NCBI RefSeq assembly: GCF_004341205.1
Contig: NZ_SLUL01000002.1
Coordinates: forward strand, 124,001-188,000
Length of the DNA: 64,000 nucleotides
Reading direction: 5' to 3'
Source of the DNA: Thermolongibacillus altinsuensis
Lineage (GTDB): Bacteria; Bacillota; Bacilli; Bacillales; Anoxybacillaceae
Shown piece by piece: positions 4,948-9,932 of this stretch (within the stretch, counting starts at the first letter, position 1; every line of letters begins with the position of its first letter). Made by a program: the position numbers and the translations under genes. The notes under the pieces were generated by a model. It saw only the letters and a list, made by a program, of their open reading frames with translations. It did no database searches and was not told where the DNA came from.

Positions 4948-5652
4948 GTGGAAAAGATGAAAAAATATCTCGTATGTTTATATATGATTTTATGCATGAT
5001 TGGAGCGTTAGTGGCGATCTACGGACAGCAAACGGAAGCGCAAACGGATGTCGTCATTCCGAAAGAAGCGGTTCGATTGCGCATTTTAGCAAACAGCGAT
5101 GCGCCGGCGGATCAGGCATTGAAGCGGGCTGTCCGCGATGCGGTGAACGCCCAAATTACAACATGGGTCAAAGACCTTACGTCATTTGCTGAAGCGCGTG
5201 AAGTCATTCAAAAGCATTTGCCTGAAATTAAACAAACGGTTGAACAAGTGTTACAACAACACAAAAGTGATCAATCTTATCAAGTCAAATTTGACCATGT
5301 GTCGTTCCCAACAAAAATTTATGGAAACTATGTTTATCCTGCGGGAGAGTATGAAGCGGTGCTTATTACGCTCGGAGAAGGAAAAGGAGCCAATTGGTGG
5401 TGCGTGTTATTCCCGCCGCTTTGTTTCCTCGATTTTTCGAATGGAGAAGCGGTTCGTGCGGCAGAGCTTAATGAAGATCCAATGAACGAAGATCTAATGG
5501 ATGAAGGAACGATGAATGAAGAAGATGCAATGGACGAAGATCTGATGGATGAAGGTGCAATGGAAGAAGAGACAATGGAAGTTATCGATGATGAGCCATC
5601 GGTAGAAGTGAAATTTTTTGTTGTGGAAGTTTTGAAAAAGATCATGCAGTAA
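4948..5652 (+). CDS. spoIIR: Stage II sporulation protein R
   Basis: Forespore-secreted signal protein that triggers SpoIIGA to process pro-sigma-E in the mother cell. About 234 residues: N-terminal signal/anchor (KYLVCLYMILCMIGALVAIYG, about 6-26), then the SpoIIR domain with VRLRILANSDAPADQALKRAVRD and NWWCVLFPPLCFLD (about 149-162). Residues about 174-216 form a Met/Asp/Glu-rich repeat (EDLMDEG, EDAMDED, EEETME) before the C-terminal VEVKFFVVEVLKKI. The start is GTG 4948 after GAAGGGA; ATG 4957 is the alternative. It probably has its own promoter and ends in the terminator at 5684. Confidence 0.93.
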   Translation: MEKMKKYLVCLYMILCMIGALVAIYGQQTEAQTDVVIPKEAVRLRILANSDAPADQALKRAVRDAVNAQITTWVKDLTSFAEAREVIQKHLPEIKQTVEQVLQQHKSDQSYQVKFDHVSFPTKIYGNYVYPAGEYEAVLITLGEGKGANWWCVLFPPLCFLDFSNGEAVRAAELNEDPMNEDLMDEGTMNEEDAMDEDLMDEGAMEEETMEVIDDEPSVEVKFFVVEVLKKIMQ

Positions 5653-5654
5653 AC

Positions 5655-5891
5655 ATATCCACAAAATTTATCAACAAAAAAGAAAGCTTTATTCACATTT
5701 TGTGGATAAAGCTTGTTTTATTCAAAGCCATCTTTTATACTTTGTTAAGGACATTTTGCGCCAATAGTTGATATTATTCGATTCTTTTCAACAGGAATGG
5801 ATATAAAATTGCATATTTATGAGGTGAATTCGTTGAAAACACACGTTTTTTCTGTGGATAATTTTGTGGATGAATCGCTTATTTATCCACA
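5655..5891. promoter_or_regulatory. Cluster of DnaA boxes at the spoIIR-ywlC junction
   Basis: Three perfect DnaA boxes (TTATCCACA or complement): 5701-5709 (minus), 5853-5861 (minus) and 5883-5891 (plus). At least four single-mismatch boxes lie among them: 5655-5663, 5668-5676, 5689-5697 and 5865-5873; another single-mismatch box lies at 6715-6723 in ywlC. Seven boxes in 237 bp is far above chance. The cluster straddles the terminator and the first codons of ywlC. From memory, ywlC is one of the B. subtilis loci bound by DnaA outside oriC. Confidence 0.72.
5684..5719 (+). terminator. Terminator after spoIIR
   Basis: Stem AAGCTTTAT (5684-5692) / ATAAAGCTT (5706-5714) followed by GTTTT. The loop and right arm contain a perfect DnaA box. 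Confidence 0.75.
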
Positions 5892-6876
5892 AATTTTCGA
5901 AGCAGCGAATTTCTTGCGTCGTGATGAATTAGTCGCTTTTCCAACGGAAACCGTATATGGACTAGGAGCGAATGCAAAATCAACAGCCGCTGTGGAAAAG
6001 ATTTTTCAGGCCAAAGGACGTCCAAGCGACAATCCGTTAATTGTTCATATTGCCTCGATCGAACAATTACATGAAATCGCTTGTGAGATTCCCGATTTGG
6101 CTTATACGTTAATGAACCACTTTTGGCCTGGACCGTTAACGATCGTGCTCAAAAAGAAAGAAGGCATTTCGGAAAAAGTAACCGCAGGGTTAGATACGGT
6201 TGCCGTTCGTATGCCTGCTCATCCGGTTGCATTGGCTCTCATTCGTGCGAGCGGATTGCCAATTGCGGCTCCAAGCGCGAACCGTTCAGGTCGTCCGAGC
6301 CCGACCATCGCGAAACATGTGCTTGATGATCTAGAAGGAAAAATTGCGGCAATCGTGGATGGAGGAGCGACAGGGATCGGCGTAGAATCAACTGTTGTTG
6401 ATTGCACACAACCTGTCCCTGTTATTTTACGCCCTGGCGGAGTGACGAAAGAGGAAATGGAACAGATTGTTGGTGAAGTGCGGATCGATCCGGGACTTGA
6501 AGAAAAGGAAGCCACGCCGAAGTCACCAGGAATGAAATATACTCATTATGCACCGCAAGCGCCGCTCATCGTTGTGAAAGGGAGTCCTTCTTTTTTGCAA
6601 ACATTAATTGATAAACAAAAAACGGAAGGGAAAAAAGTAGGCGTATTGACAACGGAAGAACAGCGTCATCATTATAACGCTGATGTCGTGCTGACATGTG
6701 GGCGGCGAAGCGATTTATCCACCGTGGCTCATCGATTGTATGATGTGCTGCGTCAGTTTGATGAAACCGATGTCGATCTCATTTATAGCGAAAGTTTCTC
6801 ATCGGAAGGAATCGGCGCTGCGATTATGAATCGTTTAATGAAAGCGGCGGGACAACAACAAATTGTGGAAAAATAA
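5833..6876 (+). CDS. ywlC: Threonylcarbamoyl-AMP synthase (Sua5/YwlC)
   Basis: Makes threonylcarbamoyl-AMP from threonine, bicarbonate and ATP, the first step of t6A formation at tRNA position 37. 347 residues: YrdC domain (ELVAFPTETVYGLGANA, KGRPSDNPLIVHI, FWPGPLT, APSANRSGRPSPT, STVVDC) and a C-terminal Sua5 domain after the linker KSPGMKYTHYAPQAPL. The frame opens at 5797, but GAGGTG at 5821 points to TTG 5833, giving MKTHVF like B. subtilis MKTKRW. The 5' codons carry DnaA boxes. mntP and ywlE follow as in B. subtilis. Confidence 0.95.
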   Translation: MKTHVFSVDNFVDESLIYPQIFEAANFLRRDELVAFPTETVYGLGANAKSTAAVEKIFQAKGRPSDNPLIVHIASIEQLHEIACEIPDLAYTLMNHFWPGPLTIVLKKKEGISEKVTAGLDTVAVRMPAHPVALALIRASGLPIAAPSANRSGRPSPTIAKHVLDDLEGKIAAIVDGGATGIGVESTVVDCTQPVPVILRPGGVTKEEMEQIVGEVRIDPGLEEKEATPKSPGMKYTHYAPQAPLIVVKGSPSFLQTLIDKQKTEGKKVGVLTTEEQRHHYNADVVLTCGRRSDLSTVAHRLYDVLRQFDETDVDLIYSESFSSEGIGAAIMNRLMKAAGQQQIVEK

Positions 6877-9488: not shown

Positions 9489-9932
9489 ATGAAAGTAGCA
9501 ATTGCTTCCGACCATGGCGGAATTCGCATTCGCGAAGAAATCAAAAAACTAATGGATGAAATGGGAATTGAATATATCGATTTAGGATGCGAGTGTGAAA
9601 CATCGGTCGATTATCCGGACTATGCAATTCCTGTGGCCGAAAAAGTAGCCAAAGGCGAAGTCGATCGCGGTATTTTAATTTGCGGAACAGGAATTGGCAT
9701 GAGCATCGCGGCGAATAAAGTAAAAGGGGTTCGCTGTGCGCTTGTCCATGACGTCTTTAGCGCAAGAGCAACACGTGAGCATAACGACAGCAACGTCTTA
9801 GCGATGGGAGAGCGCGTCATTGGGCCTGGATTAGCTCGCGAAATTGCGAAAGTATGGTTGACAACAGAATATGAAGGCGGCCGCCACGAAAATCGTTTAA
9901 AGAAAATTGCTGAATACGAAAATAAACAATAA
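9489..9932 (+). CDS. rpiB: Ribose-5-phosphate isomerase B
   Basis: Interconverts ribose-5-phosphate and ribulose-5-phosphate. 147 residues with the RpiB signature SDHGG (about 7-11), the catalytic Cys in [16 protein letters not shown] (about 63-78) and [17 protein letters not shown] 9489 has GGAGGAG upstream; the open frame from 9453 is not needed. ywlG follows 14 nt later and glyA comes next, as in B. subtilis (ywlF-ywlG-glyA). Confidence 0.95.

Follow-up and report, generated by a model that had tools for sequence, protein, structure and literature searches.

A conserved DnaA-box cluster at the spoIIR-ywlC junction of Thermolongibacillus altinsuensis and its possible roles

The purpose of the DnaA-box clusters of Bacillus subtilis is debated, and the spoIIR-ywlC junction of Thermolongibacillus altinsuensis raises the question of what keeps such boxes in place. 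Within a stretch of 64,000 nucleotides (hereafter the window), this junction holds seven DnaA boxes in 237 bp (5655-5891), three of them perfect and four carrying one mismatch, where a box is any match to TTATCCACA with at most one mismatch. Conservation of the boxes at the same gene in many families, together with coding boxes beyond what the protein needs, points to lasting selection; the analysis below addresses what the cluster corresponds to, how deeply it is conserved, how it is built into the junction and which roles would account for it.

The cluster and its genomic setting

The boxes form two groups, four of them running from the spoIIR stop codon to the predicted ywlC promoter and three lying inside ywlC (Table 1). 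A sequence-only reading of the window had reported seven boxes on both strands, and a motif scan recovered all of them in place. The spoIIR stop at 5652 lies immediately 5' of the cluster; the ATG start was chosen for this gene, which the open reading frame list opens at GTG 4948. For ywlC, the GAGGTG ribosome-binding site makes TTG 5833 the likely start (the longest start in the open reading frame list is ATG 5797), and with this start boxes 5853, 5865 and 5883 fall within codons 7-20, in agreement with the earlier statement that the boxes overlap the first ywlC codons. The TTATNCACA consensus quoted in PMC4447404 fits four of the seven boxes; those at 5655, 5668 and 5865 do not fit it and may be weak. 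The C-terminal tail of SpoIIR (window 5484-5580) is made of acidic repeats rich in M-x-x-D/E, with a weak TIGR02953 match under the cut-off of that model.

Table 1. Features of the spoIIR-ywlC junction, in window coordinates
Feature	Position	Strand	Basis
spoIIR	4957-5652	+	NCBIfam TIGR02837 spore_II_R, 210.1 bits (cut-off 151.9)
DnaA box, one mismatch, ATATCCACA	5655-5663	+	motif match
DnaA box, one mismatch, TTATCAACA	5668-5676	+	motif match
Intrinsic-terminator-like hairpin, stem formed by facing boxes 5689+/5701-, then GTTTTATT	5684-5714	+	1 found vs 0.3 expected
DnaA box, one mismatch, TTATTCACA, left hairpin arm	5689-5697	+	motif match
DnaA box, perfect, right hairpin arm	5701-5709	-	motif match
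Predicted ywlC promoter: TTGTTT (5713-5718), 17 bp, TATACT (5736-5741)	5713-5741	+	fixed-offset test
Probable ribosome-binding site GAGGTG	5821-5826	+	read from sequence
ywlC (Sua5/TsaC), likely start	5833-6876	+	NCBIfam TIGR00057, 221.3 bits (cut-off 123.2)
DnaA box, perfect, in ywlC codons	5853-5861	-	motif match and synonymous-codon test
DnaA box, one mismatch, TCATCCACA, in ywlC codons	5865-5873	-	motif match and synonymous-codon test
DnaA box, perfect, in ywlC codons	5883-5891	+	motif match and synonymous-codon test

The ywlC cluster exceeds chance. The whole window contains 26 matches with at most one mismatch against 13.4 expected, a count reached by none of 100 shuffles, and first-order Markov resampling of the window (n = 200) gave a top count of three boxes per 250 bp (in four resamplings) against the seven observed. 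Density in the genome itself was sampled over 455.5 kb, comprising the window and 20 further stretches, at least five of which were picked for holding perfect boxes. Groups of at least three boxes in 250 bp occurred on contig C2 near oriC and mnmE (9, 4 and 3 boxes), at ywlC (7), at C26:14580-14738 (7), at C2:38859-39079 (6) and at C8:129526-129624 (5), the remaining groups holding at most two boxes each. The genome as a whole has 769 one-mismatch matches and 130 matches to the quoted consensus, the survey of imperfect-box clusters covering the 455.5 kb and leaving 2.4 Mb outside it. Perfect boxes number 30 genome-wide, and at least two of them share 250 bp only upstream of dnaA, at ywlC, and before rlmH, yqeG and tsaD. 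A similar density at many unrelated loci would speak against a special role for the cluster, and within the sampled 455.5 kb dense groups are confined to oriC and to loci matching known clusters. With dnaA at C2:8986-10332 and the ywlC cluster at 129.7 kb of the same contig, the two are separated by about 119 kb, placing the cluster near oriC.

Companion groups in the same genome lie before mnmE, before rlmH, at yqeG-sda and at tsaD/ABC-F, the last with seven boxes in the gap between an ABC-F gene and tsaD, whose 3' ends face each other (L056, contig C26, 9580-9738). Between yqeG and the phosphatidylserine decarboxylase gene (L055, contig C8, about 9526-9860) lies an ORF that we take, from its protein, to be Sda-like, which suggests that this genome retains yqeG and sda side by side together with their DnaA boxes; a putative jag lies before mnmE. 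The B. subtilis names yydA, gcp and trmE stand for rlmH, tsaD and mnmE, respectively, and ywlC is reportedly one of the clusters of Okumura 2012. Table 1 of PMC4447404 gives eight high-affinity DnaA regions in B. subtilis (upstream of dnaA, dnaA-dnaN, ywcI/vpr, gcp/ydiF, trmE/jag, ywlC, yqeG/sda and yydA), in line with the statement in the earlier reading that ywlC is among the few sites outside oriC bound by DnaA in vivo in that species; the ywlC region is region 6, with nine sites and a Kd of 0.25 uM for ATP-DnaA. Seven of the eight regions in that table have counterparts in the T. altinsuensis genome, the yqeG-sda, yydA, gcp-ydiF and trmE regions corresponding to the box groups at yqeG-sda, rlmH, tsaD/ABC-F and mnmE, while no ywcI/vpr cluster was seen in the sampled sequence.

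Since these loci match the strong DnaA regions of B. subtilis, the window cluster can be placed as the ywlC member of a known set. It has several boxes in about 250 bp at the start of ywlC, oriC nearby and companion clusters, as the oriC-proximal Bacillus clusters do, and it shares with the B. subtilis ywlC cluster the gene, the presence of several boxes upstream of it and the oriC side of the chromosome. From sequence, the 5655-5891 region looks like the counterpart of the B. subtilis cluster, with the difference that spoIIR directly precedes ywlC here, whereas the B. subtilis cluster is described as downstream of ywlB (PMC4447404).

Conservation of the boxes and selection on ywlC codons

Conservation was scored by counting boxes over the 420 bp that precede the FPTETVYGL codon, a reference from which the boxes of T. 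altinsuensis lie at -283 to -55. All 41 genomes of the family, this one included, have 6-10 boxes in that interval. Among 97 further genomes of the order, from 46 other families, at least three boxes are present in 90, none in five and one in two; the scored 40.7 kb of the order contain 603 boxes in total, against 20 matches to the reversed box, and the 222 kb outside the interval at the same loci contain 326. In the class, the gene was found in 105 of 111 genomes, 97 of them outside the order, and 40 of these 97 were taken to spread over families. At least three boxes were present in 24 of the 39 that could be scored and fewer than three in the other 15, with 132 boxes in 16.4 kb against five for the reversed box and 62 boxes in 82 kb outside. 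Several of the boxless class genomes are G+C-rich and some have 34-40% G+C; one genome with 60% G+C (G176) keeps six boxes. A further search of contigs yielded ten loci, of which seven are from Bacillus (six boxes each), one from Lachnoclostridium and one from Merdimonas (none), the tenth (L003, A. caldiproteolyticus DSM 15730) matching a genome already in the set (G040, L052) and being counted once. The seven of 97 order genomes with at most one box and the 15 of 39 class genomes with fewer than three indicate that the cluster is dispensable at ywlC. No paper found by title or by the start of its abstract treats the conservation of such clusters outside B. subtilis; the conservation of arrA is discussed in PMC12112137, and PMC545597 treats the DnaA boxes at oriC.

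The companion clusters were surveyed in 30 chosen order genomes, namely the seven whose ywlC interval holds no more than one box plus a further 23, as groups in 300 bp within 1.5 kb of the gene. At least four boxes were found at tsaD in 26 genomes, at rlmH in 18, at yqeG in 18 and at mnmE in 11, the corresponding numbers for at least three boxes being 26, 25, 28 and 22; the reversed box never reached three in 300 bp in this survey. These counts are rough, in that some of the best groups are intragenic or distant (e.g., at -1357 of rlmH in G124), one tsaD match is partial and below cut-off (G051) and contig ends truncate some loci. In each of the seven ywlC-poor genomes, one or more of the four companion loci hold at least four boxes; clusters are lost one locus at a time, as a redundant set would predict.

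The three coding boxes offer a means of separating selection on DNA from selection on protein. In each gene, the 34 codons before the FPTETVYGL motif were replaced by random synonymous codons drawn from that gene's own usage. The 41 family genomes hold 120 intragenic boxes against a mean of 44.6 and a maximum of 61 in 500 draws, and the order holds 195 against a mean of 75.4 and a maximum of 98; for perfect boxes, the family has 69 (maximum 20) and the order 117 (maximum 22). With one genome per family (n = 47), which limits shared ancestry, 95 boxes were observed against a mean of 38.5 and a maximum of 51 in 1000 draws, 58 of them perfect (maximum 14), whereas the reversed box occurs twice in the same 47 genomes (mean 0.4, maximum 3). 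Taken alone, the window gives a modest result (P 0.07 for at least three boxes, 0.008 for at least two perfect ones). The boxes recur at fixed codon positions, at -85 from FPTETVYGL in 34 of the 47 families, at -55 in 25 and at -73 in 17; other lineages place them elsewhere, at -66 in three families and at -29 in eight, where different peptides are read. It is the DNA sites, and not the peptide, that seem to be kept, and the excess of intragenic ywlC boxes over what the protein demands supports selection at the DNA level. A loss of boxes in close relatives that keep the codons would argue against such selection; the 40 family relatives all keep their boxes, and it is the N-terminal residues of YwlC that vary. 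The earlier reading had proposed a conserved, selected role in titrating DnaA or timing replication: conservation and selection on DNA stand on the family and order counts and on the synonymous tests, whereas titration and timing are carried over from B. subtilis.

Box number at ywlC also varies with the distance from oriC, for which mnmE served as a proxy in the 48 of 97 order genomes that carry both genes on one contig, the other 49 being left out. Circular lengths were used for 12 contigs taken as closed, some of them from two- or three-contig assemblies. All 37 genomes with ywlC within 286 kb keep at least three boxes, whereas five of the 11 with ywlC beyond 300 kb have at most one, and box number falls with distance over the 48 genomes (Mann-Whitney p 5e-4, Spearman -0.46). 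The YwlC tree yields one independent pair on well-supported branches (five on all branches), too few for a sign test, and most of the distant genomes form one clade; shared ancestry confounds the relation of box loss to oriC distance, which constitutes a lead, not a result. Among the five distant box-poor genomes, two have boxes further upstream of ywlC, G075 (L107) at -610 to -819 and G114 (L146) at -1052 to -1210, and a third (G125) has two at -509 and -498. By eye, an opposing reading frame appears to separate the box groups of G075 and G114 from ywlC.

Predicted terminator and promoter architecture

The boxes had been described in the earlier reading as spanning a terminator, and a terminator-like hairpin is indeed predicted between spoIIR and ywlC, with 14 pairs, a T-rich tail and a folding energy of -17 kcal/mol (z -6.75), none of 200 shuffles folding as well. 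The predicted ywlC -35 element overlaps the end and tail of this hairpin, at a distance of 12 bp from where box 5701 starts, and sequence-based prediction thus superimposes terminator, operator and promoter in about 58 bp. The 138 loci from the family and the order contain 84 modules of facing boxes with a 3-bp gap. A stem extension of at least six pairs is found in 15 of the 84 modules against one of 420 slipped-arm controls, and one of at least four pairs in 27 of the 84 (12 of 26 families) against 42 of 420; the facing pairs of the oriC and tsaD clusters of T. altinsuensis have no such extension.

In 31 of the 138 loci, exactly 12 bp separate the start of a minus-strand box from that of a TTG...TATACT-type pair. 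These loci come from 11 families, the family of T. altinsuensis supplying 12 of them, and any other offset between -20 and +60 is represented by at most three loci. A general promoter scan of the window gave two matches, against 2.0 expected, that lie elsewhere and do not include the predicted ywlC promoter, and a best-score promoter search of 18 loci returned a mixture of hexamers, not all of which had the +12 geometry. Both the hairpin and the promoter geometry are confined to part of the loci.

A terminator stem formed by a facing box pair, with a promoter at a fixed offset, is predicted here and was not met in the portions of the B. subtilis literature consulted, and no paper found by title or by the start of its abstract treats boxes as terminator stems. 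The DnaA-dependent attenuation described for the E. coli his operon (PMC10989985) likewise ties DnaA to transcription attenuation, but it involves an RNA leader, whereas the predicted stem at ywlC is itself composed of two boxes. The predicted overlay of terminator, operator and promoter, like the depth of conservation, was not met in the literature consulted, the cluster itself being of a known kind.

Possible roles of the cluster

The reading that we consider probable is that of a long-standing DnaA cluster close to oriC that both represses ywlC and holds DnaA, terminator, operator and promoter lying on top of one another; we infer binding, repression, termination and titration alike. DnaA would bind the four boxes between spoIIR and the promoter and the three inside the first 20 ywlC codons and, adjoining the -35 element and sitting downstream of the start, would repress the gene, which encodes a tRNA t6A enzyme. 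Such repression would be a more direct local role, absent from the sequence-only reading. The position of the site and its early copying, soon after initiation, lead us to propose that it would also hold several DnaA molecules and that, with the rlmH, yqeG-sda, tsaD/ABC-F and mnmE clusters, it would damp free DnaA. When transcribed, the facing pair 5689/5701 would form the spoIIR terminator stem, its tail carrying the ywlC -35 element.

Work in B. subtilis bears on both halves of this reading. DnaA appears to repress ywlC (PMC4447404), and expression from a PywlC-lacZ fusion (-240 to +73) is reported to fall in a mutant whose DnaA level is roughly doubled (PMC12112137). Removal of six clusters advances initiation, according to two reviews, one of them PMC13220808; a B. 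subtilis review notes that the effect is strong only with six clusters removed, that one cluster at various places gives partial rescue, and doubts a significant role in replication. About tenfold overproduction of DnaA is stated not to cause over-initiation (PMC13220808), and the DnaN clamp has been favoured as the sink for DnaA (PMC5319796). The datA and DARS regions of E. coli, non-coding and DnaA-related, likewise lie outside the origin and influence initiation, but what they change is the ATP/ADP state of DnaA, and datA, DARS and IHF are given as missing from B. subtilis (PMC13220808).

The alternative that survives best, although we consider it unlikely, is that the boxes are a local operator only, kept to repress ywlC and playing no part in the control of replication. 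The boxes do flank a fixed promoter-like pair and lie in ywlC, and both the apparent repression in B. subtilis (PMC4447404, PMC12112137) and the view of the review that finds no significant replication role for the clusters are in its favor. A purely local function fits poorly, however, with clusters kept at four other non-oriC places here and in many of the 30 order genomes, with a tsaD/ABC-F cluster that sits between two gene ends and has no promoter position, and with the early initiation that follows six-cluster deletion according to the reviews. The boxes found about 600-1200 bp from ywlC in G075 and G114 further suggest that repression of ywlC is not the sole reason for keeping them.

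At the other extreme, the cluster could be a titration sink alone, its place at ywlC historical and repression a side effect. Conservation as a set, with loss locus by locus, and the partial rescue by one cluster at various B. subtilis places noted in the review are what a sink would predict, but the positions of the boxes are fixed with respect to the ywlC reading frame and, at some of the loci, to the promoter as well, and a pure sink needs neither, making this account rather improbable. A second or relic replication origin is suggested by the number of boxes and by an A+T content of 71%, against 70% in the dnaA-dnaN box region, but it is rejected as very improbable, since an origin should have a DnaA-trio next to its boxes and lie beside dnaA/dnaN, whereas the trio-like repeat seen beside the dnaA-dnaN boxes has no equivalent at ywlC by the same rule and dnaA is about 119 kb away. 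The notion that conserved protein sequence and A+T-rich intergenic DNA give rise to the cluster incidentally has equally little to commend it: the VDN/VDK and YPQ peptides do favor one-mismatch boxes, as the synonymous mean for the 47 genomes reflects, but the observed 95 lie above every draw, the reversed box occurs only twice and the boxes fall in different frames and peptides among lineages, so that protein constraint alone is rejected by the synonymous-codon draws in the family, order and one-per-family sets.

Beyond the combined repressor-and-reservoir role preferred above, a broader and more tentative proposal is possible, in which the B. subtilis clusters would be an ancestral network extending over much of the class. 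Its ywlC node would be a composite where the facing pair serves both as RNA terminator stem and as DNA operator, with the next -35 element in its tail, and selection for boxes would have shaped the N-terminal peptide of YwlC. If this proposal holds, DnaA could set both read-through from the upstream gene and the firing of ywlC, tying t6A tRNA modification to replication initiation, and the titration part of the cluster's role would show in its disappearance where ywlC has moved far from oriC. The natural losers and the genomes with displaced clusters offer a comparative test, and the fused terminator, operator and promoter provide a concrete construct for mutation. As a separate observation, two t6A genes, tsaD and ywlC, both carry DnaA-box clusters.
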